11,672 bases of DNA. It comes from Halomonas sp. GTDB taxonomy: Bacteria; Pseudomonadota; Gammaproteobacteria; Pseudomonadales; Halomonadaceae. The position numbers were made by a program, and so were the translations under genes. Every line of letters begins with the position of its first letter. Position 1 is the first letter of the stretch. Positions 1-11,672 of the stretch are shown one piece after another. The DNA is taken from contig PWIZ01000101.1 of assembly GCA_003560175.1 (NCBI GenBank), positions 1 to 11,672 on the forward strand, given 5' to 3'. Below the pieces are notes generated by a model. The model did not search any database and was not told the origin of the DNA. It saw nothing but the letters and a program-made list of their open reading frames with translations.

Positions 1-118
1 CATGGTGTGACGCTCGTATCAAGGGTGGGTCGGGAGCCGTACGATCATTGCCCGGGTTTTTAACCGCTCGGCCCGCGCCAGGTCAAATCACCGCCTGCCG
101 AGGTCACCGCCCGGCTGC

Positions 119-124
119 TATCAT
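119..124 (+). promoter_or_regulatory. Possible -10 element of the gor promoter
   Basis: TATCAT matches the sigma-70 -10 consensus at five of six positions and lies about 50 bases before the gor start. A -35 at the right distance is poor: CTGCCG at 95-100 matches three of six, with an 18-base spacer. The rest of 1-172 shows no gene that can be supported. A CAT at 1-3 could be the start codon of a minus-strand gene leaving the window, but nothing of it is visible. Confidence 0.3.
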
Positions 125-172
125 GCCGCTACGACGAACCGGGCCGCTGGGCCCCAGCAACAGGAGAACTCC

Positions 173-1552
173 GTGTCCGAGAATACCGAATCCCAGTATG
201 ACTGGGACCTCTTCGTGATCGGCGCCGGCTCCGGCGGCGTGCGCGCGGCTCGAACCGCGGCGGCGACGGGCGCCAGGGTCGCCGTGGCCGAGGACCGCTA
301 TCTCGGCGGCACCTGCGTTAACGTGGGTTGCGTGCCCAAGAAGCTCTACTCCTATGCGGCCCATTTCCATGACGCCTTCGAGGATGCCGGCGGCTTCGGC
401 TGGCAGCTGTCCGAAGCGCCGCGGTTCGACTGGGCGACCCTACGTGACAACAAGACTGGCGAGATCAAACGCCTCAACGGCATCTATGGTCGTCTGCTGG
501 AGGGGGCCGGGGTACGCCTGGTTCAAGGCCGAGCGTGCATCCTCGACCCGCACACCGTCGAGGTGGCCGGCGAGACCTTCAGCGCCGAGCGAATTCTGGT
601 GGCGGTGGGCGGATGGCCATGGGTGCCGGAGTTTCCGGGCAGCGAGTTGACCCTGACCTCCAACGAGGTGTTCGATCTGGACACCTTCCCCGAGCGCTTC
701 CTGGTGCTGGGCGGTGGCTACATCGCCGTGGAGTTCGCCAGCATCTTCAACGGCCTGGGCAGCCAGACCCACCTGATCTATCGCGGCGATCTCTTCCTGC
801 GTGGTTTCGACCAGCAGGTGCGCGAGTTCACCCGCGACCAGATGGCTGCCAAGGGTGTGAACCTGCACTTCGAGACCAACATCGAGCGCATCGAACAGTG
901 CGAGAGCGGGTTGGCGGTGACCCTGACCAGCGGTGAGGTGCTTGAGGTGGATGCCGTGCTGGCCGCCACGGGGCGCCGACCGCATCTCGAGGGACTCGGG
1001 CTTGACGCCATGGGCGTCGAGCTCGCCGACAGCGGCCATGTCAAGGTCAACGACCGCTTCGAGACCTCGCAGCCCTCCATCCTGGCGCTGGGCGACGTGT
1101 CCGGCGGCCCCGAGCTGACCCCGGTGGCCCTGGCCGAGGCGATGCACCTGGTGGCGCATCACTTCGGCGACTCCCCACCGACCGCGCCGCTGGACTACCG
1201 CAATATTGCCACCGCAGTGTTCTGTCACCCCAACATCGGCACCGTGGGGCTCTCCGAGGAAGAGGCTCGCGAGCACTGTGGTGATATCCGCGTCTATGTC
1301 ACCGATTTCCGCCCCATGAAGCACACTCTGTCGGGTAGCCAGGAGCGCTGCCTGATGAAGCTGGTGGTGGATGACGCCAGCGACGTGGTGGTGGGCGCTC
1401 ACATGGTGGGCGAGGAGGCCGGAGAGGTAATCCAGGGCATTGCCATTGCCGTTCGCGCCGGCCTCACCAAGGCCGATTTCGATGCCACCGTGGGCATCCA
1501 CCCCACCGGCGCCGAGGAGTTCGTCACCCTGCGCACTCCGTCGCGTCGCTGA
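173..1552 (+). CDS. gor: Glutathione-disulfide reductase
   Basis: This cytoplasmic FAD flavoenzyme reduces oxidised glutathione with NADPH and maintains the thiol pool. The 459 residues fit the family (about 450). An FAD-binding Rossmann motif GAGSGG lies near residues 17-22. The redox disulfide CVNVGC is at 48-53, a second dinucleotide fold GGGYIA at 180-185, and the C-terminal catalytic signature HPTGAEE at 443-449. Arg204 and Arg210, in the stretch after the second fold, match the positions that bind the NADPH 2'-phosphate in E. coli Gor, so NADPH rather than NADH is expected. This separates it from dihydrolipoamide dehydrogenase. The start is GTG at 173, chosen because AGGAG at 162-166 lies six bases upstream and the N-terminus fits the family. 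It appears to be a single-gene unit; ectA follows after 241 bases with its own promoter. Confidence 0.95.
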
Positions 1553-1577
1553 GCTTGCCAATCGACCTTGCATTCAG

Positions 1578-1609
1578 GCGTCGGGTCACCCGGGGGGGTG
1601 GCACGACGC
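1578..1609 (+). terminator. Strong hairpin downstream of gor
   Basis: Outer arms GCGTCG (1578-1583) and CGACGC (1604-1609) enclose inner arms CACCC (1587-1591) and GGGTG (1596-1600) around a GGGG loop. One mismatch and a wobble pair lie between the two stems. No T-run follows, so it is not a canonical intrinsic terminator. It may mark the 3' end of the gor message or assist factor-dependent termination. Confidence 0.35.
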
Positions 1610-1665
1610 TGCTGCGGCACCCGTTCATTCGGTAGGGTATGGACTAGAATGAAATGAGGAGGGCG

Positions 1666-1683
1666 GTGCCGGCAAAAAGGCAC
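1666..1683 (+). other. Second short hairpin in the gor-ectA gap
   Basis: GTGCC (1666-1670) can pair with GGCAC (1679-1683) across an eight-base loop, GGCAAAAA. A T-run occurs only at 1696-1701, rather far from the stem for a classical terminator. It may still act with the upstream hairpin to insulate ectA from gor transcription. Confidence 0.25.
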
Positions 1684-1690
1684 GGCTCTT

Positions 1691-1707
1691 CATAATTTTT
1701 TATTATG
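1691..1707. promoter_or_regulatory. AT-rich inverted repeat upstream of the ectA promoter
   Basis: CATAAT (1691-1696) and ATTATG (1702-1707) are perfect 6-base arms around TTTTT. The dyad lies 28 bases before the ectA -35 element, where an activator or upstream operator could sit. The same arms, with a four-base spacer, recur at 4934-4949 in the other regulatory region of this window. The binding protein is unknown. Confidence 0.4.
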
Positions 1708-1735
1708 GATGAGGCTTTGTTAAATACCCCCAGAT

Positions 1736-1763
1736 TTGAAATATCACTCATCGCTGGTATGAT
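1736..1763 (+). promoter_or_regulatory. Sigma-70-type promoter of ectA
   Basis: A -35 element TTGAAA (1736-1741) and a -10 element TATGAT (1758-1763), each five of six to consensus, are separated by 16 bases. TGG directly before the -10 gives the extended -10 form TGnTATGAT. Transcription would begin near 1770, leaving a leader of about 24 bases. The ectA operon of Halomonas elongata is known to have vegetative and sigma-S promoters; I see no convincing separate sigma-S promoter here. Confidence 0.65.
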
Positions 1764-1793
1764 ATTCCACAAATTCGCACAGCGAACCTGACC

Positions 1794-2372
1794 ATGACGA
1801 CAACTTCCGAGCCCTTCACTCCCTCCTCCGACCTTGCCCGCCCCACCGTGGCGGATGCCGTAGTCGGCGCTGAAAGTTCATCGCTGTTCATTCGTAAGCC
1901 CAACCCCGATGATGGCTGGGGTATCTATGAACTGGTCAAATCCTGTCCCCCACTGGACGTCAATTCCGCCTATGCCTATCTGCTGTTGGCGACTCAGTTT
2001 CGCGACAGCTGTGCGGTGGCTACCAACCAGGAGGGGGAGGTAGTCGGCTTCGTTTCCGGCTATGTGAAGAGTAACGCACCAGACACCTATTTCCTGTGGC
2101 AGGTAGCGGTAGGTGAGAAGGCACGCGGCACCGGCCTGGCCCGGCGCCTGGTCGAGGCCGTCATGTCGCGACCCGAACTGGCCGAGGTGCATCATCTCGA
2201 GACCACCATCACCCCCGACAACCAGGCCTCCTGGGGGCTGTTTCGTCGGCTTGCCGGCCGCTGGCAGGCGCCGCTCAACAGCCGCGAATACTTCTCCACC
2301 GACCAGCTCGGCGGGGAACACGACCCGGAGAACCTGGTCCGCATCGGTCCCTTCCAGACCGATCGCATCTAA
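1794..2372 (+). CDS. ectA: L-2,4-diaminobutyrate N-acetyltransferase (ectoine synthesis)
   Basis: EctA transfers an acetyl group from acetyl-CoA to the gamma-amino group of L-2,4-diaminobutyrate. This is the second step of ectoine synthesis and takes place in the cytoplasm. The protein has a GNAT fold, with the acetyl-CoA pyrophosphate loop RGTGLA at 111-116 after the strand LWQVAVGEKA. Further family blocks are KSCPPLDVNSAYAY near 49-62 and ETTITPDNQASWGLF near 136-150. Its 192 residues equal the length I recall for Halomonas elongata EctA, and the sequence is very similar throughout. The ATG at 1794 gives the usual N-terminus, but the Shine-Dalgarno region (AGCGAA at 1781-1786) is weak. It is the first gene of ectABC, read from the promoter just upstream, and is followed by a terminator-like hairpin before ectB. 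Confidence 0.97.
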   Translation: MTTTSEPFTPSSDLARPTVADAVVGAESSSLFIRKPNPDDGWGIYELVKSCPPLDVNSAYAYLLLATQFRDSCAVATNQEGEVVGFVSGYVKSNAPDTYFLWQVAVGEKARGTGLARRLVEAVMSRPELAEVHHLETTITPDNQASWGLFRRLAGRWQAPLNSREYFSTDQLGGEHDPENLVRIGPFQTDRI

Positions 2373-2380
2373 TCCCTCAA

Positions 2381-3731
<1,351 letters not shown>

Positions 3732-3743
3732 TAATCTAAATAG

Positions 3744-3762
3744 ACGGCCCTCGCCGGGCTGT
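3744..3762 (+). other. Small hairpin in the ectB-ectC gap
   Basis: ACGGCCC (3744-3750) pairs with GGGCTGT (3756-3762), seven pairs including one G-T wobble, around a TCGCC loop. No T-run follows. It could be an mRNA processing or stability element between ectB and ectC. The 86-base gap holds no convincing sigma-54 or sigma-70 promoter for ectC. Confidence 0.3.
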
Positions 3763-3817
3763 GCTGCGGGTGGGTTTGGCGACCCCCTGTTACGAATACA
3801 ACTGTCGGAGTTAATCC

Positions 3818-4213
3818 ATGATCGTTCGCAATCTCGATGAGTGCCGCAAGACCGACCGCCTGGTCAAAGCCGAAAATGGCAACTGGGACAGTACTCGCCT
3901 GAGCCTGGCCGACGACGGCGGCAACTGCTCATTCCATATCACTCGTATCTATGAGGGCACCGAGACCCATATCCACTACAAGCACCACTTCGAGGCGGTA
4001 TACTGCATCGAAGGTGAGGGCGAAGTGGAGACCCTGGCCGATGGCAAGATCTGGCCGATCAAGCCGGGCGACATCTACATACTCGACCAGAATGACGAGC
4101 ACCTGCTGCGCGCCAGCAAGACCATGCACCTGGCCTGCGTGTTCACCCCGGGCCTGACCGGCAAGGAAGTCCACCGCGAGGATGGCTCCTACGCGCCCTC
4201 CGACGAGGGCTGA
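3818..4213 (+). CDS. ectC: L-ectoine synthase
   Basis: EctC closes the ring of N-gamma-acetyl-diaminobutyrate by water elimination to give ectoine, the last step of the pathway. It is a small iron-dependent cupin. Glu59 ([11 protein letters not shown]), Tyr87 (GDIYILD) and His95 (DEHLL) correspond, with a constant offset of two, to the iron ligands reported for the Paenibacillus lautus enzyme (Glu57, Tyr85, His93). The cupin barrel covers most of the protein. At 131 residues it is slightly shorter than the 137 I recall for Halomonas elongata, the difference being a shorter C-terminal tail after SYAPSDEG. The ATG at 3818 is preceded by GGAG at 3807-3810, seven bases away. It ends the operon and faces the convergent lipoprotein gene across a strong hairpin. 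Confidence 0.97.
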
Positions 4214-4231
4214 GCCCAATAGCTGCACGAC

Positions 4232-4263
4232 GACGCCCCCGGACCTCAGGTGCCGGGGGCGTC
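4232..4263. terminator. Bidirectional hairpin between ectC and the convergent lipoprotein gene
   Basis: GACGCCCCCGG (4232-4242) and CCGGGGGCGTC (4253-4263) form a perfect 11-base-pair GC-rich stem with a ten-base loop. The loop (4243-4252) contains the stop codon of the minus-strand lipoprotein gene (4246-4248). No T-run follows on either strand, so efficient intrinsic termination is not certain, but the position suits a shared 3'-end structure for both convergent transcripts. Confidence 0.6.
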
Positions 4264-4827
4264 TGTGCTGGTGTCATCGGAATCCACTCCGAGGCGTTCG
4301 AAGACGATGGTGATCTCTGCCAGGGTCACACCAAACTTCTTCATTGACGTTCGGTTGATCAGGCGACCGTCCGGCTGCAGGAACATCCAATCGTCCATTG
4401 TAAAGGTAATCTCGCGTCCCGAGACCTCAACAGGCAGTCGGTAGGTCATGTTGAAGGCATGGCCGGCCTGGCGGGCTTCCACGGGGCCCTCGACGTCGTT
4501 GGCGCTGCCGATCCAGAGGCCGTCGCCCTGGCGCTCGAAGGTCCAGACTCGGCGATCTGTCTCACCGTCGTCGTAGAGAAAATGCTCGTCGAGGACCAGG
4601 GTCGTGCCGTCATGTTCGCCATGGATGTCTACCACAAAGCGCCGCTGCACTTCGCCGCGGTAGTCCTGGACCATGCCCCAGGCTCGTGTACGACCGTCGA
4701 AGTACTCGCCGATATCGAGCGCCGGTGTAGTGTCCGCGTAGCGATCGACATCGACACTGCTGCAACCGGCCAGCAGCAGGGCAAGCAGGGAGACCAGCAG
4801 TGGGTAAAGCCGAATTTTCCGACACAT
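4246..4827 (-). CDS. DUF3833-type lipoprotein of unknown function
   Basis: The 193-residue product starts with a signal peptide (MCRKIR, then a hydrophobic stretch to residue 20) and a lipobox LLAGC, with the lipidated cysteine at residue 22 followed by Ser. Ser at +2 favours sorting to the outer membrane. The body resembles, from memory, the DUF3833 family: EYFDG (41-45), AWG (49-51), the stretch DDWMF (145-149) and INRTSMKKFG (157-166). These lipoproteins have a lipocalin-like look with many beta strands, but their role is not established. The ATG at 4825-4827 is supported by GAGG at 4836-4839, eight bases upstream. The gene is convergent with ectC, its stop lies in the loop of the shared hairpin, and it is divergent from the retropepsin-like gene, with which it shares an intergenic region. 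Function unknown; an envelope role is inference. Confidence 0.85.
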   Translation of the reverse strand: MCRKIRLYPLLVSLLALLLAGCSSVDVDRYADTTPALDIGEYFDGRTRAWGMVQDYRGEVQRRFVVDIHGEHDGTTLVLDEHFLYDDGETDRRVWTFERQGDGLWIGSANDVEGPVEARQAGHAFNMTYRLPVEVSGREITFTMDDWMFLQPDGRLINRTSMKKFGVTLAEITIVFERLGVDSDDTSTDAPGT

Positions 4828-4923
4828 TGATCAAACCTCGTCAAGGATGTGTGTAGATTTTCTCCATCCTAGCCTCGGACAGGACCCAGAACCAGCGGAA
4901 CAGCGTGACATCGTCCTGGGTGC

Positions 4924-4951
4924 TTGTACTTCGCATAATGTATATTATGTT
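4924..4951 (+). promoter_or_regulatory. Possible promoter of the retropepsin-transglutaminase-ATP-grasp cassette
   Basis: TTGTAC (4924-4929, three of six to the -35 consensus) and TATGTT (4946-4951, four of six to the -10) are 16 bases apart in the only AT-rich patch of the divergent region 4828-5092. The inverted repeat at 4934-4949 fills the spacer, as an operator would. The start site would be near 4958, giving a long leader of about 135 bases before the ATG at 5093. The assignment is tentative; no clear promoter for the minus-strand lipoprotein gene was found. Confidence 0.3.
4934..4949. promoter_or_regulatory. Inverted repeat CATAAT-N4-ATTATG in the divergent intergenic region
   Basis: CATAAT (4934-4939) and ATTATG (4944-4949) are perfect arms around GTAT. 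The arms are identical to those of the dyad upstream of ectA (1691-1707, five-base spacer). It lies between the divergent lipoprotein and retropepsin-like genes and overlaps a candidate promoter, so it could act as an operator for one or both. Confidence 0.45.
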
Positions 4952-5092
4952 AAATCCACTAGGTGGCGGCGCCTCCCGGACTACGGGCCATCGTGGTTTT
5001 TTGGCGATTTCCACTGGCCCGGTTGGACAAGCCGGTCGGCGACTCCTTATGATCACGCGACACGCGCCCGCCTCAAGAGATAACCTCGCCTC

Positions 5093-5935
5093 ATGCCACG
5101 ACGCCTGCTACCCACCGGTGCCCTCGCACTTATTGTGCTACTGAGCACTGGCTGCGCCATGCTCATTGAGCAAAGCGAGCCGGAGCCCGTGCTGGGCCCC
5201 GACGAATTTGCACTGCGCATCGATCGCCTTGAATCCGATCTGGTGGCCCGCTGTGATCTGCAGCAGGCGACCCTGATCGAAAACACCCGCCGCCAGGAGA
5301 CGCTGGTCGCTGACGTGCGTGAGGTCGGCAGCCTGGTCCGACATCTGCGTGCCAATATCGAGCAGCTGGAGCGCGCCGAGGGTAAACCGTCGGTCGCCGC
5401 TCGAGAATGCGCTACCGTTGAGACTGCCCTGGGCAGCAAGACCGCGGTCGGCCGCAGCGAATGGATCGGCCTGCCCGATGTGGGCACCTACCTGAAGGCG
5501 CGAGTCGATTCAGGTGCCAATACCTCGTCGCTGTCGGCCAGCGAGATCACCCGCTTCGAGCGCGACGGGGTCAACTGGGTGCGGTTCAAGCTTGGTGTCA
5601 CCGATGATGACGTGGTGGTCGAAGGTGTGCGCGATGAGTGGATCGAGGCGCCGGTCGAACGCCGTGTGCGCATCCTTCAGGCCGCCGGCGAAGAGTCCCG
5701 CCCGGTGGTTAGCCTGATGATGACCCTGGGCCCGATCCGTGAGGTCGTGGAGTTTACCCTTAACGACCGCACCCACCTCAGCTATCCGGTACTGCTCGGT
5801 CGGCGCTTCTTGATGGACATCGCGGTGATCGATGTTGCCGAGAGCTTTCTCCATGAGCGCCCCGAGTATCCCGGCGGGCGTCCGGCTGACGAGGCCGTCG
5901 ACGACGAGGAAGACCGGGACGACGAAGAGCGCTGA
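5093..5935 (+). CDS. Retropepsin-like aspartyl protease lipoprotein (RimK/ATP-grasp-associated, 'ATP-dependent zinc protease' family)
   Basis: This 280-residue protein has a signal peptide (MPRRLL plus a hydrophobic stretch) ending in LLSTGC, with Cys21 as the likely lipidation site. Its +2 residue is Ala, which suits an outer-membrane lipoprotein. Residues about 36-95 look like an alpha-helical, probably coiled-coil stalk. The C-terminal domain from about 121 is a single retropepsin-like unit. It has the catalytic signature DSGANTSS at 139-146 and the matching LLGRRFL at 234-240, typical of pepsin-fold proteases that work as dimers. The family is often labelled ATP-dependent zinc protease (DUF785), but the motif points to an aspartyl protease. 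The tail (266-280) is very acidic. The start has only a weak Shine-Dalgarno site (AAGAGA at 5075-5080). It heads a cassette with the transglutaminase-7TM gene 61 bases downstream and the ATP-grasp gene. Substrate unknown; envelope peptides are an inference. Confidence 0.85.
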   Translation: MPRRLLPTGALALIVLLSTGCAMLIEQSEPEPVLGPDEFALRIDRLESDLVARCDLQQATLIENTRRQETLVADVREVGSLVRHLRANIEQLERAEGKPSVAARECATVETALGSKTAVGRSEWIGLPDVGTYLKARVDSGANTSSLSASEITRFERDGVNWVRFKLGVTDDDVVVEGVRDEWIEAPVERRVRILQAAGEESRPVVSLMMTLGPIREVVEFTLNDRTHLSYPVLLGRRFLMDIAVIDVAESFLHERPEYPGGRPADEAVDDEEDRDDEER

Positions 5936-5947
5936 AGCGCCTCTCTC

Positions 5948-5975
5948 TCAGTGCTCTGCCGTCAGTGCTCTGCCG
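5948..5975. repeat. Perfect 14-base tandem duplication
   Basis: TCAGTGCTCTGCCG occurs twice in direct contact (5948-5961 and 5962-5975) just after a CT dinucleotide run (5941-5949). It lies in the 61-base gap between the retropepsin-like and transglutaminase-like genes. It looks like a recent slippage duplication; it leaves the Shine-Dalgarno site at 5986-5990 untouched. Confidence 0.9.
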
Positions 5976-5996
5976 CTGTATTGCCAAGGATGATTC

Positions 5997-7502
5997 ATGT
6001 CACGACTGCCCTTCTATCTGCTTGTCGGCCTGCTGCTGGTGATGGGCATCGGCCTCAGCGTTCATCGCCACGTTACCCTCGAGGTACCCTGGACCCCCGG
6101 CGAGCAGCGGGAGGTGTGGGAGGTTGAGGCGCTAGTCAACTTCACCGCCCAGGACGGCCCGGTGCTGGTCAATATGGCACTGCCTTCACGCCAGCAGTCA
6201 TTCCGACTACTTACCGAGCACACCGCCTCGCCGGGGTACGGCCTGGCCTTCCTGGAAGAGAACGGCGGTCGCCGCGCCCAGTGGTCGATTCGCGACGCTT
6301 CCGGCAACCAGCAGCTCTACTACACCACCCAGATGCTGGCCACTCCAGACGCTCGCCCCCCCGGGATCGAGCCACCGGAGCTGCACAGCGACATCATCTG
6401 GGAGCGCCCCTACGACACCGCCGCGGCCCAGATGATCGAACGCGCCTGGAATCGCAGCGCAGACGGCTTCACCTTCGCTCGTGAATTGATTCGCGACTTC
6501 GGTGACGAACGCCAGGGCGAGAATTCCCGCCTGCTGCTGACCCAGTTCGAGCGGGGCCCGCTGCTGGTGCGCCTGCTCAACCAGGCCGGCGTGCCGGCCC
6601 GGGAGGTCAGCGGCCTGCTGCTGGAGGACGCTCGCCGCCGCCAGACCCTCAGCCAGTGGGTGCAGGTATTCGACGGCGAGCGCTGGGCCTTGTTCGACCC
6701 GGCCACTGGCGAACAGGGACGTCCCGATAACCTGCTGCTCTGGGAAGCTTCCGGCCAAGCGGTGCTGGAGGTTCAGGGCGGGACCAACTCGCGAGTCACC
6801 TTCTCGATGCTCAACCGCAACCAGCCGGCGGCGGCCGCGGTGCGCAGCCAGCTAGCCGAGGACACCCTGCTCAACTTCTCCATTCATAGCCTCCCCCTCG
6901 AGGAGCAGGCGCTATTCCAGACGATCCTGCTGATCCCCATCGGCGCTCTGGTGGTGGTCATCCTGCGCATCCTGGTGGGCATCAAGACCTCCGGCACCTT
7001 CATGCCCGTGCTGATCGCCCTGGCCTTCATCCAGACCACCCTGATCACCGGCCTGGTCGGGTTCCTGCTGATCGTGGCGGTGGGCCTGGTGATCCGCAAC
7101 TACCTCTCCTATTTGAATCTGCTACTGGTGGCGAGGGTGACGGCGGTGATCATCACGGTCATCGCCATCATCTCGTTATTCTCGGTGCTCTCCTACCGCT
7201 TCGGGCTCAATGCGGGGCTGACCATCACCTTCTTCCCGATGATCATCCTTTCCTGGACCATCGAGCGCATGTCGATCCTGTGGGAGGAGGAAGGGCCCAG
7301 GGAAGTGTTGATCCAGGGTGGCGGTAGCCTGCTCACCGCGGTGATCGCCTTTCTGGCCATGACCAACCCCTGGGTACGCCATATCACCTTCAACTTCTTG
7401 GGCGTGCAGATGATCCTGATGGCGCTGATCCTGCTCCTTGGCAACTACACCGGCTACCGGCTGCTCGAACTGCGCCGCTTCAAGCCTATTACCGAGGATT
7501 GA
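5997..7502 (+). CDS. Inactive transglutaminase-like domain fused to seven transmembrane helices
   Basis: The 501-residue protein has an N-terminal membrane anchor (about 5-22), a soluble part to about 300, and seven hydrophobic helices near 308-327, 333-350, 352-368, 374-398, 405-421, 441-456 and 466-484. The soluble part contains a transglutaminase/papain-like fold: LLNQAGVPAREVSG (193-206), SQWVQVF (219-225) and LFDPATGE (232-239). In active enzymes the second block reads H-x-W; here Ser219 replaces His, and no Cys is found at the expected nucleophile position (around 175-185). Only the Asp (234) of the triad remains, so it is probably a non-catalytic binding domain, likely periplasmic. The family is known from analyses of ATP-grasp gene neighbourhoods. 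AAGGA at 5986-5990 supports the ATG at 5997. The stop overlaps the leader of the ATP-grasp gene, six bases before its ATG, suggesting translational coupling. Confidence 0.85.
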   Translation: MSRLPFYLLVGLLLVMGIGLSVHRHVTLEVPWTPGEQREVWEVEALVNFTAQDGPVLVNMALPSRQQSFRLLTEHTASPGYGLAFLEENGGRRAQWSIRDASGNQQLYYTTQMLATPDARPPGIEPPELHSDIIWERPYDTAAAQMIERAWNRSADGFTFARELIRDFGDERQGENSRLLLTQFERGPLLVRLLNQAGVPAREVSGLLLEDARRRQTLSQWVQVFDGERWALFDPATGEQGRPDNLLLWEASGQAVLEVQGGTNSRVTFSMLNRNQPAAAAVRSQLAEDTLLNFSIHSLPLEEQALFQTILLIPIGALVVVILRILVGIKTSGTFMPVLIALAFIQTTLITGLVGFLLIVAVGLVIRNYLSYLNLLLVARVTAVIITVIAIISLFSVLSYRFGLNAGLTITFFPMIILSWTIERMSILWEEEGPREVLIQGGGSLLTAVIAFLAMTNPWVRHITFNFLGVQMILMALILLLGNYTGYRLLELRRFKPITED

Positions 7503-7507
7503 GCGCC

Positions 7508-8500
7508 ATGTGGAACTGGACCTCCCCCGGCAAGTTGCGCGCCAAGGGCATCATCGGAATGAATCGCCGAAACATTCGCTATATTGGTCGCTATAACGAT
7601 CGCCGCCTCTACCCACTGGTGGACGACAAGCTCAAGACCAAGATATTGGCCCAGGAATATGGCATCACCACGCCGGCGCTGATCGGCACCGTTGCCACCC
7701 AGTTCGGGGTCAAGCACCTGCGCGAGATGCTGCACGGCCACGACGGATTCGTGATAAAGCCGGCCAAGGGCAGCGGCGGCAAGGGGATACTGGTGATCGA
7801 CCACGTCGAGGATGGCGCCTTTATCAAGCCCAGCGGCGTCCGACTCACCCTCAAGGACGTCGAACGCCACGCCTCCAATATTCTCTCGGGCCTCTACTCC
7901 CTGGGGGGCTCCCCCGACGTGGCGGTGGTCGAGGCGCTGATCAACTTCGACGAGCGGCTCGCGGAGTACACCTACGAGGGCGTCCCCGATATCCGCGTCA
8001 TCGTCTTCCTGGGCTATCCGGTGATGGCGATGATGCGCCTCTCCACCGCGGCGTCGGACGGCAAGGCCAACCTGCATCAGGGCGCCGTCGGGGTAGGCCT
8101 GGATATCGCCACCGGCACCGCCATCCGCGGCGTACAATTCGACCGCACCCGCCTTGACCACCCCGACACCGGTCACGAATTGGCCAGCCTGCATATTCCC
8201 GACTGGGACACCCTGCTGCTGCTGGCCGCCGGCTGCTATGAAATGACCGGGCTGCTGGGCTATCTCGGCACTGACGTGGTACTGGACCGCGACCACGGCC
8301 CCATGCTGCTGGAGCTCAATGCCCGTCCAGGCCTGGCCATCCAGATGGCCAACGGCGAAGGGCTGCGCCGTCGCCTCGATCTGATCGAGCGTCAGCCGGC
8401 GGGGTGTCCCCCCGAAGAGCGCGTGGCCTTCGCCCAGCACCACTTCGCCCGCCGCAGCGAACTCGAGTCAAACGCCGTCTCGGCCGCCCTGGCCGTCTGA
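7508..8500 (+). CDS. RimK-related ATP-grasp ligase ('alpha-L-glutamate ligase-like' protein)
   Basis: This is a cytoplasmic ATP-grasp enzyme expected to form an amide or peptide bond through an acyl-phosphate intermediate. Seen in the sequence: an N-terminal family block GIIGMNRRN (14-22), the ATP-binding loop KPAKGSGGKG (84-93), a DIRVIVF strand (161-167), and the metal/ATP block LLELNARPGL (267-276) with Glu269 and Asn271. The 330 residues fit the subfamily I know as RimK-related glutamate ligase-like; the true amino acid substrate and acceptor are not known. The ATG at 7508 is chosen because GAGG at 7494-7497 lies ten bases upstream and the start MWNWTSPGKLR fits the family. An in-frame TTG at 7499 would add three residues but lies only one base after that site. 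It follows the transglutaminase-7TM gene by five bases, so both are probably co-translated. It completes the three-gene cassette. Confidence 0.85.
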   Translation: MWNWTSPGKLRAKGIIGMNRRNIRYIGRYNDRRLYPLVDDKLKTKILAQEYGITTPALIGTVATQFGVKHLREMLHGHDGFVIKPAKGSGGKGILVIDHVEDGAFIKPSGVRLTLKDVERHASNILSGLYSLGGSPDVAVVEALINFDERLAEYTYEGVPDIRVIVFLGYPVMAMMRLSTAASDGKANLHQGAVGVGLDIATGTAIRGVQFDRTRLDHPDTGHELASLHIPDWDTLLLLAAGCYEMTGLLGYLGTDVVLDRDHGPMLLELNARPGLAIQMANGEGLRRRLDLIERQPAGCPPEERVAFAQHHFARRSELESNAVSAALAV

Positions 8501-8509
8501 TGCTCGCTG

Positions 8510-8527
8510 GCCGGACTGAGGTCCGGC
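8510..8527. other. Hairpin between the ATP-grasp gene and zur
   Basis: GCCGGAC (8510-8516) and GTCCGGC (8521-8527) form a perfect 7-base-pair stem with a TGAG loop, ten bases after the ATP-grasp stop. No T-run follows. It could end the cassette transcript weakly, or be an operator, since a -10-like TAGAAT (8531-8536) lies right after it. Confidence 0.4.
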
Positions 8528-8567
8528 GCGTAGAATGGTGTCCTCATTTCGCCAGTTGATGGTCGTC

Positions 8568-9011
8568 ATGCCAGAACCCCGTGCCCTGCTTGACCAGGCA
8601 GCCCAACAGTGCCAGCAGCGCGGCGCGCGCTTCACCCCGATCCGCCGGCGCGTGCTGGAAATGATCGCCGAGGCTCCGGGCAGTCTGAAGGCCTACGATC
8701 TCCTGGACCGCCTGGCCGAGGAGCACGCCGCCGCTCGGCCGCCCACCGTCTACCGCGCCCTGGAGTTCCTGATCGACCAGGGGCTGGTGCACCGCATCGA
8801 ATCGCTCAACGCCTACGTGGCCTGCCCCTGCCCGGAGCACGCCCATGGCTTCCAGCTGCTGATCTGCCGGCTGTGCGGGCGGGTCGAAGAGCTGCACCTT
8901 GACGACGTCAACGCCCAACTCTCGCGGCAAGCCCGTGACCTCGGCTTTCGCGTGGAGCGCCAGACCATTGAACTGCTCGGCCACTGCGAAGCGTGTCACG
9001 CCGACGCCTGA
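8568..9011 (+). CDS. zur: Zinc uptake regulator, Fur family
   Basis: Zur is a dimeric repressor that binds DNA when zinc is replete and controls zinc uptake and zinc-sparing genes. The winged helix includes the recognition segment PPTVYRALEFL. Metal ligands match E. coli Zur in spacing. Counting from the chosen start, His75, Cys86, His93 and Glu108 correspond to the regulatory site (E. coli His77, Cys88, His96, Glu111). Cys100, Cys103, Cys140 and Cys143 form the structural site, in CRLC and CEAC. This pattern, rather than the HHH-rich pattern of Fur, supports Zur. The ATG at 8568 gives 147 residues. An in-frame ATG at 8535 would add eleven residues (MVSSFRQLMVV) unlike the family and overlaps a TAGAAT -10 candidate. 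None of the possible starts has a strong ribosome site. hisI and yidD follow closely. Confidence 0.88.
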   Translation: MPEPRALLDQAAQQCQQRGARFTPIRRRVLEMIAEAPGSLKAYDLLDRLAEEHAAARPPTVYRALEFLIDQGLVHRIESLNAYVACPCPEHAHGFQLLICRLCGRVEELHLDDVNAQLSRQARDLGFRVERQTIELLGHCEACHADA

Positions 9012-9057
9012 GCCGACCACCCTGCCCCCTGCCCCCCTTCTTTTCGGATCTTCTGCC

Positions 9058-9498
9058 ATGCCCGATACCTTCAAGGCCCTGGAGCGGGCCGACCGTGACA
9101 GCCGACACCCGCTGAACGAGATTCTCGAGGCGGCGCGCTTCAACGCCGAGGGCCTGATCCCCGCCATCGCCCAGCAGCACGACTCGGGGGAGGTTCTGAT
9201 GATGGCCTGGATGAATCGCGAAGCGTTGGAGGAGACACTGCACACCGGGCGCGTCTGCTACTGGTCGCGCTCGCGCGGTAAGCTGTGGCGCAAGGGCGAG
9301 AGTTCCGGCCAGCAGCAGCATCTCAGGGCCGCCGCGCTAGACTGCGACGGTGACACCCTGCTGCTCCAGGTGGACCAGACCGGTCCTGCCTGCCATTCCG
9401 GCCGGCGCAGCTGCTTCTACGTGGCCCTGGAGGGCGAGGAGGCCAGGATTACCACGGCCCCGCTAATCGATCCCGACACTCTTTACGGCAAGGTCTGA
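9058..9498 (+). CDS. hisI: Phosphoribosyl-AMP cyclohydrolase (histidine synthesis)
   Basis: HisI opens the purine ring of phosphoribosyl-AMP, the third step of histidine synthesis, in the cytoplasm. Family blocks are GEVLMMAWMN (44-53), GRVCYWSRSRGKLWRKGESSG (64-84) and the metal-binding end, with the acidic DCDGD at 95-99 and Cys96, Cys112 and Cys119, the zinc cysteines. It is the short HisI-only form (146 residues) without the HisE pyrophosphohydrolase domain. The reading frame is open further upstream, to an ATG at 8899, but that part overlaps zur and has no family character. The ATG at 9058 starts MPDTFKALER and is accepted despite a weak ribosome site (GGA at 9046-9048). It lies 46 bases after zur and one base before yidD. 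Being alone, away from a his operon and beside zur, it may be a zinc-responsive paralog or simply a dispersed single copy. Confidence 0.92.
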   Translation: MPDTFKALERADRDSRHPLNEILEAARFNAEGLIPAIAQQHDSGEVLMMAWMNREALEETLHTGRVCYWSRSRGKLWRKGESSGQQQHLRAAALDCDGDTLLLQVDQTGPACHSGRRSCFYVALEGEEARITTAPLIDPDTLYGKV

Positions 9499-9499
9499 G

Positions 9500-9847
9500 A
9501 TGCCCTGCCTCGCCGCCTGGCTAGCTCGGCTGTTGCGCGCCCTGCGCCGCGGTGTCGGCTGGTTGATGATCGGCCTGGTCAAGGTCTACCAGGTCACGCT
9601 GAGCCCGCTGCTCGGCCCGCGCTGCCGCTACTGGCCGAGCTGCTCCCACTACACGGTGGAAGCCATCCAGGTGCACGGGCCGTTCCGGGGTGGGCTGATG
9701 GCGCTCCGGCGCATCACCCGCTGTCACCCGGGCTGCGAAGGCGGCATCGACCCGGTGCCGGGCGGGCCCAGCGAACGCCTCTGCCGCGAGGATCCGGAGC
9801 TCGACGAGCACTTCCGCCCGCGCGACGACGCCTGCCGTCACCGTTAG
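9500..9847 (+). CDS. yidD: YidD, membrane protein insertion efficiency factor
   Basis: YidD is a small membrane-associated protein that helps YidC/Sec insertion of inner-membrane proteins. The signature is clear: YQVTLSPLLGPRCRYWPSCSHY (30-51), RRITRCHPGCEGGIDPVP (70-87), and conserved cysteines at 42, 48 and 75. An amphipathic N-terminal helix of about 25 residues, rich in Arg and Leu, would lie on the membrane. At 115 residues it is longer than many homologues (roughly 70-100) because of tails at both ends. The ATG at 9500 is one base after the hisI stop and AAGG at 9490-9493 lies inside hisI, so translation is probably coupled. The usual place for yidD is between rnpA and yidC; here it is apart from them, which may mean a second copy or a moved gene. 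Confidence 0.88.
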   Translation: MPCLAAWLARLLRALRRGVGWLMIGLVKVYQVTLSPLLGPRCRYWPSCSHYTVEAIQVHGPFRGGLMALRRITRCHPGCEGGIDPVPGGPSERLCREDPELDEHFRPRDDACRHR

Positions 9848-9897
9848 CCGCTTCTCTCCTGCCTGTCGTCGCCCGCTACCCGCCCTGGCCAGGTTGC

Positions 9898-9919
9898 CTG
9901 GAGCGATTATTCGCTCTGG
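9898..9919. terminator. Hairpin between yidD and the convergent fic gene
   Basis: GAGCGA (9901-9906) and TCGCTC (9911-9916) pair around a TTAT loop, with three more pairs outside (C-G and two wobbles). The loop holds the stop codon of the minus-strand fic gene (9907-9909). No T-run follows on either strand. The 59-base gap otherwise contains only a CCTGGCCAGG palindrome (9884-9893). Confidence 0.45.
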
Positions 9920-11460
9920 CCGATACCGGCAAAGCCGTCAGCCACGATGGCTTCCAGCCGCTCAACGAGAGCCGCGTCATCCAGGACCGGGAAGTCGCGC
10001 CGCAGCTTGCCGCTGACGCCGCCATGCTGTCGAATGGCACGAATGATCCGGTCCATATGTTCATCCGGGCCCTCTACCCACTCCTTGATCGCTTCGCGCG
10101 TCACATACCAGGCTCGCTGAATGGCCGCCTGCTGGTGCATTTCATGCTCCAGGGTGTAGCGCACGATCTCTTCGAGATATTCGACCTGATCGGTCAGGTC
10201 GGGATATCGCCAGGTGGGCCCGGCCTCCTCATAGGCGGAGAAGGTGAAGTCGGATTCGATCCCGTCGGGGTAAGACCGGCGCCGATTGAGGAAGCCGACG
10301 GCATCGCCGTAGTGCCGCATCAGAGGGCGTGAATAACGCTCCAGTACCCGATCATATTCGATGCGGCGCATTGAAGACGAAGTGATCGCCGCGGAGATCG
10401 GCAGAATAAAGGGCTCCGGCACGGCACCATCGCGTCGCAGGATATCATTGATCAGGAAACGCGAGATGCGCCCGTTACCATCCGCCAGCGGGTGTATGAA
10501 TACAAAGCCGAAGCTGGCCACCGCCGCCCTGGTGATGGCATCTTCCTGCCCCGTCGACTCGAGGAAATGATTCAATCCCCTAAGCAGGTCAGGGAGCCAT
10601 GCCCAGGGGGGGCAGACATAGTGCACGACAGCCCCTTGGGTAACGGAGCGACTACCCACGAAGACAGGAGATTGGCGCAATCCCGGCTGAATGGTGGCAA
10701 CGCCCAGGATGGCGCTCTGGAGTTCGCCCAATGCCTCGGGAGCCAGCGGATCCTCCCATTGCCCGCAATAGGCCTCCATGGCGGCGGCAAACCGCTGTAT
10801 GCGCCCCTGGTGGCCGCCCTCATGCTCGATCACGAAACTCGCCCGGCTCTCCTTGATGGTCAACCAGACGGCGCTACGGCGGAGAATGTCGGCGCCGAAC
10901 TCCCCTTCCATGCTTTCCAGCTGGTGACGGATATCATAGTCACGCGACCGCTCGACGCTCGAGGTGCGCCGGACCATGGGGCAGTAGTCCCGCGAGCCGG
11001 GGAGGTTGTCGTTGATACGCCACCGCCGGTTGCGCCTCGGGTGTGTTGCCGTCACATAGTCATCGGGGCTCAGGGCATCCCGGTAATTCCCTCCGGTCTC
11101 GGCGATATCCAGGCGCGCTCCCGTCAGCCATTCATACAGGAAGCCTGCTCGACGGGCGTACTGCCCGGTAGGTTCGCTACGAACCCATTCTGACAGGCTC
11201 TCGGGGGGCAGTTTCTGAAACAGCCGTGCCAGGAACTCGAGATGCACGCCCTCATGCTTGAGGGCAAAGGTGAGATGGCCGGAAAGGGTCGCCGCCGGGC
11301 GCATACTCTCCAGATAGGCCTCGCTGCGGCGCCCCTCATGCTCCAGGGTGTGACGAGCGCGGCTAATACGACTCTCGACAGAGAAAGGCTGGACGGCATC
11401 GACGTCATAAGTCGAGGCCAACCAGGCGTAGCCAATTTCGTCGCCATTTTGCCGTGCCAA
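9907..11460 (-). CDS. Large Fic-domain protein (putative AMP transferase)
   Basis: Fic enzymes usually transfer AMP from ATP to a hydroxyl side chain of a target protein. The catalytic loop HPLADGNGRISR is at 323-334, with the catalytic His323 and phosphate-binding Arg331 and Arg334. A beta-hairpin flap (VFVGSRSVTQGAVVH, 266-280) precedes it. An N-terminal inhibition motif (S/T)xxxE(G/N) seems to be represented by Ser208-Phe-Val-Ile-Glu212, with His213 where Gly or Asn is usual. The C-terminal part (about 440-510) looks like a winged-helix domain. The first 150 residues resemble other large Fic proteins of about 500 residues but have no assigned function. The start is TTG at 11458-11460; GGGA at 11469-11472 is a weak ribosome site, and no upstream ATG is in frame before a stop-free AT-rich leader. 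The target is unknown. No antitoxin-like small gene is next to it. Confidence 0.85.
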   Translation of the reverse strand: MARQNGDEIGYAWLASTYDVDAVQPFSVESRISRARHTLEHEGRRSEAYLESMRPAATLSGHLTFALKHEGVHLEFLARLFQKLPPESLSEWVRSEPTGQYARRAGFLYEWLTGARLDIAETGGNYRDALSPDDYVTATHPRRNRRWRINDNLPGSRDYCPMVRRTSSVERSRDYDIRHQLESMEGEFGADILRRSAVWLTIKESRASFVIEHEGGHQGRIQRFAAAMEAYCGQWEDPLAPEALGELQSAILGVATIQPGLRQSPVFVGSRSVTQGAVVHYVCPPWAWLPDLLRGLNHFLESTGQEDAITRAAVASFGFVFIHPLADGNGRISRFLINDILRRDGAVPEPFILPISAAITSSSMRRIEYDRVLERYSRPLMRHYGDAVGFLNRRRSYPDGIESDFTFSAYEEAGPTWRYPDLTDQVEYLEEIVRYTLEHEMHQQAAIQRAWYVTREAIKEWVEGPDEHMDRIIRAIRQHGGVSGKLRRDFPVLDDAALVERLEAIVADGFAGIGQSE

Positions 11461-11519
11461 AATGATTATCCCGCGTAAAAAACGATTATTTTTAAAGTCC
11501 GGCCTAGAAAAATGATTAT
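11459..11519. repeat. Three phased direct repeats AAAAYGATTAT upstream of fic
   Basis: Copies lie at 11459-11469 (AAAATGATTAT), 11479-11489 (AAAACGATTAT) and 11509-11519 (AAAATGATTAT). Starts are 20 and 30 bases apart, so all three face the same side of the helix. The first copy overlaps the fic start codon; a possible -10 (AATAAT on the minus strand, 11485-11490) lies in the second. This fits an operator bound cooperatively. The core ATAATCATT also resembles half of a Fur box. Confidence 0.7.
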
Positions 11520-11537
11520 GCAGGGGGGCTTATGGGC

Positions 11538-11672
11538 TCAGGCGGCCTCCTGCTCGGCCACCTCATAGATGCGCTTGAGCATGGCGTTCAGGCCGTTGCT
11601 GCGGGTCGGCGAGAGGTGCTTGTCGAGGCCCAGGTCGGCGAGGAAGTGGGGGCTGGTGGCGCGGATCTCGGC
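11538..11672 (-). CDS. sufE: SufE-type sulfur acceptor, C-terminal fragment
   Basis: Only the last 44 residues and the stop are inside the window; the 5' part lies beyond position 11672. The translated end includes LGLDKHLSPTRSNGLNAM, followed by LKRIYEVAEQEAA. The SPTRSNGL block at the C-terminus is typical of SufE, which takes sulfur from a SufS-type cysteine desulfurase and passes it to Fe-S cluster assembly. The catalytic cysteine lies in the unseen part. It could also be the related CsdE, but the wording of the block favours SufE. It is read in the same direction as fic, which begins 77 bases downstream across the repeat region. Confidence 0.75.
   Translation of the reverse strand, partial: AEIRATSPHFLADLGLDKHLSPTRSNGLNAMLKRIYEVAEQEAA

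Follow-up and report, generated by a model that had tools for sequence, protein, structure and literature searches.

A Halomonas RloABC operon and the joint presence and loss of its protease, membrane and ATP-grasp genes

The closest described relative of the genes considered here is the RloABC system published for Pseudomonas aeruginosa (Lormand et al. 2025, mBio; PMC12239564, a paper represented here and below by parts of its text). In hypo-osmotic medium, three redundant secreted RloA proteases are required, and deletion of either rloB or rloC suppresses the hypo-osmotic death of the triple RloA protease mutant (PMC12239564). In vitro RloA cuts runs of eight or more glutamates and not runs of six or fewer, and versions mutated in the catalytic Asp, R114 or R137 give no rescue in vivo (PMC12239564). 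The second relevant system is the RimB-RimK pair of ribosomal S6 polyglutamylation, which consists of homologous protease and ATP-grasp families and is, unlike RloABC, cytoplasmic and devoid of RloB. Here we analyze a stretch of 11,672 nucleotides (nt) from Halomonas sp. (GenBank assembly GCA_003560175.1, contig PWIZ01000101.1, positions 1 to 11,672; hereafter the window), taken from an assembly of 2.63 Mb in 439 contigs with 72% completeness, and find that its rloABC genes are an ordinary, well-conserved Halomonadaceae member of the published system. In the open literature (preprints and subscription papers lay outside the search) we found no paper joining RloA with Halomonas. The three genes are:

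5093-5935, plus strand: rloA, 280 amino acids (aa), a lipid-anchored retropepsin-like aspartic protease
5997-7502, plus strand: rloB, 501 aa, a membrane-anchored degenerate transglutaminase domain followed by a seven-transmembrane (7TM) domain
7508-8500, plus strand: rloC, 330 aa, a predicted cytoplasmic ATP-grasp ligase (alpha-L-glutamate ligase-like)

They lie on the same strand in the order A-B-C, with gaps of 61 nt between rloA and rloB and 5 nt between rloB and rloC. A preliminary description, made from the sequence alone, had recognized these families and the tight spacing of the last two genes, and the open reading frames (ORFs) and the Pfam and NCBIfam matches agree with it on both counts.

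Its further proposal, that the three genes constitute one system, is strongly supported by their distribution across the Halomonadaceae and the wider phylum. Our family sample comprised 101 Halomonadaceae genomes, 70 with rlo genes (rlo-plus) and 31 without (rlo-minus). PF14402 (rloB) and TIGR02291 (rloC) are present in the identical 70 genomes and are adjacent in every one of them, while rloA adjoins the pair in at least 67 of the 70 (66 among the matches listed, plus G022). In the phylum beyond the family, rloA is found adjacent upstream of rloB in 39 of the 47 genomes with PF14402 over the cut-off, and RloC adjoins RloB in 41 of 41 RloB loci examined. Such recurrence within and outside the family indicates that the arrangement is not due to chance. 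Eight genera in the sample are without any rlo member and four (g2, g3, g5 and g20) are mixed; the mixed genera imply that rloB and rloC have been lost jointly more than once.

The PF05618 proteases, the family to which both RloA and RimB belong, follow a related pattern. Two or more PF05618 genes are present in 67 of the 70 rlo-plus family genomes; in the 31 rlo-minus genomes there is one such gene in 28, none in two and two in one. Fourteen PF05618 genes, each from a different rlo-minus family genome, all bear the RimB-type motif DTGA(R/K)TSALHA, and 13 of these have no N-terminal signal, the remaining one (G024, locus L190) having an ambiguous start. Six PF05618 genes lying outside the operon in rlo-plus genomes comprise four with a signal-like start and two of RimB-like type. 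Outside the family, 72 rlo-minus genomes of the phylum yielded PF05618 in 17 cases, with 19 genes over the cut-off, of which 17 look cytoplasmic. Secreted RloAs are scarcely retained without rloBC, with at least one exception. Their loss along with rloBC is expected if RloBC makes what the secreted RloAs are needed for; this joint gain and loss ties the protease to the RloBC product in wild genomes, independently of the knock-outs.

The window proteins carry the domains and motifs of an RloABC system. RloA matches PF05618 at residues 119-256 (E 1e-35), its lipobox LSTGC, with Cys21, constitutes an N-terminal signal that predicts export, and its catalytic motif RVDSGA places Asp139 within a DSGA version of the D(T/S)GA signature. 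In phmmer comparisons it recovers 9g59 (E 6.8e-21) and 9g58 (E 4.7e-16), the codes for the two RloA crystal structures (PMC12239564). Arg203 and Arg226 align with the conserved arginines of both structures, and their spacing of 23 residues is the same as that of the published R114 and R137, the matching of positions being our own. The catalytic and substrate-binding residues are, in short, retained. The C-terminus (window 5858-5935) forms an acidic tail, RPADEAVDDEEDRDDEER; similar tails, with 9-13 Asp/Glu per 26-32 residues, end most of the distinct operon RloAs displayed, those of L044, L009 and L059 excepted. This tail could be a substrate mimic or could reflect the general acidity of halophile proteins.

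RloB matches PF14400 (E 3.9e-53) and PF14402 (E 1.6e-108), with the transglutaminase domain at about residues 30-276 and the 7TM domain at about 300-500. In the alignment columns of the catalytic triad the Cys is replaced by Q and the His by S, and only the Asp is kept; the window RloB is thus an inactive transglutaminase fused to a 7TM domain. In this it differs from 3isr, a putative cysteine protease of the transglutaminase fold, relative to which it has lost the triad Cys and His. RloB has no sequence relative in the PDB at E values up to 1, and it is 94% identical to a protein labelled Halomonas tibetensis. Database names of its relatives ('Gonadoliberin III', 'UUP1 family membrane protein') are at odds with its domains and seem to be wrong labels that have spread between records. 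RloC scores 444 bits against TIGR02291 (cut-off 314) and matches PF14397 (E 1.3e-90), whose Pfam name is 'sugar-transfer associated'. The ORF as called begins with TTG at 7499, the ATG at 7508 being the likelier start, and it retains KPAKGSGGKG and ELNARPG, which we take to be intact-looking ATP-grasp motifs. On the NCBIfam models, the window RloA scores 118 bits for RloA3 (cut-off 210) and RloB 350 bits for RloB (cut-off 900), so that by NCBI's rule they are not RloA3 and RloB and count just as broader relatives.

Taken with the published work, these observations make it reasonably probable that the system handles an acidic chain, probably rich in glutamate, which is produced by RloC, held or exported by RloB and trimmed by RloA. 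In the cytoplasm RloC would link acidic residues, most likely glutamates in alpha linkage, to each other as a chain or to a carrier; RloB would receive or export the product through its 7TM domain, with the dead transglutaminase domain holding it on the periplasmic side; and RloA, a lipoprotein on that side and presumably anchored to the outer membrane, would trim it to size or release it from the carrier. Product left uncut would damage the envelope in dilute medium. We infer RloC as the maker of the substrate, polyglutamate as the substrate and RloB as its mover. The preliminary description had likewise put the ligase in the cytoplasm, the 7TM protein in the membrane and the protease outside; that arrangement agrees with the published genetics and biochemistry (PMC12239564), whereas its statement that the ligase makes a peptide is one that we too can only infer. 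The identity of the RloBC product is the question behind the envelope-stress, biofilm and cell-shape phenotypes of Pseudomonas.

Several points weigh against the acidic-chain reading. An RloBC product is not reported in the literature covered, part of which was represented by portions of papers; the ligase activity of RloC is a prediction from its sequence; transport by RloB is suggested by its modelled fold only; and the cleavage of polyglutamate by RloA was seen only on a designed substrate, with no natural one known from the covered parts of the paper (PMC12239564). The window RloA has cysteines at positions 21, 54 and 106 only, and none in the protease domain, where periplasmic RloA orthologs are reported to carry a Cys pair (PMC12239564). 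Among the genomes, the rlo-minus G129 holds a lone lipoprotein-like PF05618 gene and G142 an ambiguous one (L216), and G290 has rloBC with no adjoining rloA. As to its surroundings, the G129 protease gene (L225, 7211-7720) is situated beside unrelated genes for a 643-aa lipoprotein-like protein and an 889-aa protein.

The resemblance of RloA and RloC to RimB and RimK, which modify RpsF, raises the alternative that RloC attaches glutamates to one particular protein of the cytoplasm or membrane and that the tagged protein, or its tag, reaches the periplasm, is bound there by RloB and has the tag removed by RloA, in a reversible post-translational modification; the cutting of polyglutamate on RpsF8E by RloA in vitro (PMC12239564) fits this as well. 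However, no candidate target protein is known, RloA and RloC, unlike RimB and RimK, would be separated by the membrane, and the 7TM protein, unneeded by a soluble tagging pair, is always present, in the same 70 of the 101 family genomes. We regard protein tagging as unlikely.

A different perspective on the system comes from its variants. The eight exceptions to rloA adjacency among the 47 phylum genomes are G290, two genomes of family f38 and five of family f32. The Cys, His, Asp triad is present in the four f32 RloBs that were aligned, and its Cys motif recurs in the fifth (G372); one f32 RloB scores 60.9 bits on Transglut_core (cut-off 23), against 17.6 for the window RloB. PF05618 is missing from four of these five genomes, and G193 has a single copy on another contig. 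Downstream of RloC a TPR protein is encoded in the four loci compared, followed in three by a 392-403 aa protein with sub-threshold resemblance to the Slam barrel (the fourth contig ends there); G372 has size-matched ORFs at the corresponding TPR and barrel-like positions. The f32 operon (L106, L107, L108, L116, L226) comprises RloB with an intact triad, RloC, the TPR and the barrel-like genes, along with a PepSY-like gene in L106, L107 and L108; it may serve to export the same product. The f38 loci have a 7TM domain with no transglutaminase attached; RloC lies next to it, and it is preceded by an ORF of 314-315 aa whose barrel match stays below threshold. Together, the f38 and f32 variants point to a minimal unit of 7TM protein and ATP-grasp ligase, with a cutter that varies. 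As judged from the sequences, it is suggestive that the cutter would be either a dead domain with a retropepsin or an intact-looking domain with no adjoining retropepsin, which may go back to a single evolutionary event. The f32 lineage amounts to a natural test: if both cutters share a product, there are two unrelated settings in which to hunt it. The f32 genomes also encode large proteins (about 1080 aa) in which two CapC (PF14102) units in tandem are accompanied by long additional regions (L113 8486-11725, L114 8686-11937). In G228 (L104, about 3727-5067) the barrel-RloB-RloC set is immediately preceded by two genes, one for a PF05618 protein of RimB type and one for an ATP-grasp protein that is probably RimK, making rim and rlo-like genes neighbors in that genome.

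The TPR and barrel-like genes of f32 would also suit a model in which a lipid or peptidoglycan precursor receives an acidic peptide from RloC, is flipped or held by RloB and is trimmed by RloA. The rlo mutants show cell-shape and beta-lactam phenotypes (PMC12239564), and in a transposon screen in another bacterium, disruption of hm2192, coding for an inactive transglutaminase with seven TM helices, caused an excess of vesicles (PMC12096838, likewise represented by parts of its text). We saw no lipid-carrier enzyme gene next to rlo in the loci inspected, and we consider a cell-wall or lipid acceptor distinctly improbable.

PgsC/CapC (PF14102) is the membrane subunit of poly-gamma-glutamate synthases, with a role in polyglutamate export. 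In AlphaFold2 (AF2) models, the RloB 7TM domain and CapC appear alike in the order and lengths of their helices, including a half-helix, and each, compared separately, seems to match Rnf/Nqr chains weakly. At the sequence level, the window RloB has no PF14102 match. Comparison by hhalign gave probabilities of 0.4% for RloB against CapC unit 1 and 0.2% against unit 2, next to 0.2% against an unrelated MraY-type control and 0.3% against Rnf, with 86% for the positive control of CapC unit 1 against unit 2. Six conserved residues are identical between RloB and CapC at one offset, a figure matched by 3923 of 5000 label shuffles and by the reversed order, and an offset picked by eye yielded only four. 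Sequence homology of RloB and CapC is thus not supported, the hhalign values being at the level of the MraY-type control and the motif coincidences at that of shuffles. A CapC protein likewise has no sequence relative in the PDB at E values up to 1, and a weak CapC match in G311 (E 6.5e-4) was dropped, its ORF looking COX15-like. In the same open literature the Rlo paper alone brings together any two of PgsC, inactive transglutaminase, 7TM_transglut, PF14402 and RloB, and PgsC does not figure in it.

The likeness of the models allows a tentative and rather doubtful extension of the acidic-chain reading, under which RloBC would be a two-component acidic-chain synthase and exporter comparable to PgsBC/CapBC but equipped with an ATP-grasp ligase. 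RloC would polymerize alpha-glutamate, and the chain would be threaded out by the 7TM domain of RloB, which would have an inverted fold like that of Rnf/Nqr and resemble CapC through remote kinship or convergence. The periplasm would then need a cutter. In one lineage this would be the still intact transglutaminase domain, with TPR and barrel-like genes downstream for outer-membrane export; in most others that domain would have died and RloA have replaced it.

The remaining features of the window, the neighboring ectoine genes among them, are:

173-1552: glutathione reductase-like gene
1794-4213, same strand as rlo and upstream: ectA, ectB and ectC
4246-4827, minus strand: DUF3833 lipoprotein gene, between ectC and rloA
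5024-5053, plus strand: sigma-70-like promoter candidate upstream of rloA (TGGACA, 18 nt, TATGAT), no more than expected by chance
8535-9011: Fur/Zur-type regulator
within 8899-9498: hisI, start probably at 9060
after hisI: yidD
9907-11460, minus strand: Fic-domain gene, 517 aa, at the window edge

The promoter scan found this one candidate against a mean of 0.7 in shuffled regions, and a terminator scan and an Rfam search of the window returned nothing beyond chance. From the position beside ectABC the preliminary description had suggested a role in envelope adaptation to salt, and one may imagine the rlo cassette as part of the ectoine response, co-regulated with ectABC: 56 of the 70 rlo-plus family genomes have ectB on the rlo strand, no more than 15 kb upstream. 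Outside the family the association disappears. Among 45 rlo-plus genomes there, 31 lack ectB, and in the 14 that have it (E 1e-120 or better) it is never linked to rlo, being on another contig in 13 and hundreds of kilobases off in G283, though draft contigs could mask a few linked cases. Moreover, an ectB-like match is present in all 101 family genomes (96 over the cut-off), rlo-less ones included, the opposite-strand DUF3833 gene intervenes in the window, and the published phenotype is hypo-osmotic rather than one of high salt (PMC12239564). In the rlo-less G093, ectABC directly precedes the fur-type gene, with an ectC-fur gap of 186 bp and with rloABC and DUF3833 missing; G022, as the window, has the DUF3833 gene between ectC and rloA. 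The ectABC-rlo neighborhood is best read as inherited local synteny and does not indicate joint function. We reject it as functional evidence, given the lack of linkage outside the family and the many rlo genomes without ectB, and a part for rlo in ectoine-based salt adaptation is highly improbable.

Compared with the RloABC system of Pseudomonas, the window locus is alike in its three gene families and their order, with a secreted retropepsin, a dead transglutaminase-7TM protein and an ATP-grasp ligase, and in the key residues of RloA. It departs from that system in its RloA, a protein of 280 aa that carries a lipobox and ends in an acidic tail, and whose protease domain follows a long N-terminal stretch and is free of the Cys pair reported there; RloA and RloB both match their NCBIfam models below the cut-offs. 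The distinction from RimB-RimK extends to their fates, as a RimB-type gene persists in most rlo-less family genomes. Non-pathogenic Halomonas, whose genomes carry the rlo operon (H. elongata is one example), could provide a bench organism. The RloABC system itself was already known; to it the present analysis adds the family-wide joint presence and loss of its genes, the restriction of the 14 inspected rlo-minus PF05618 genes to the RimB type, the local synteny with ectABC, the f32 variant and the weak likeness of the modelled RloB and CapC to Rnf/Nqr.

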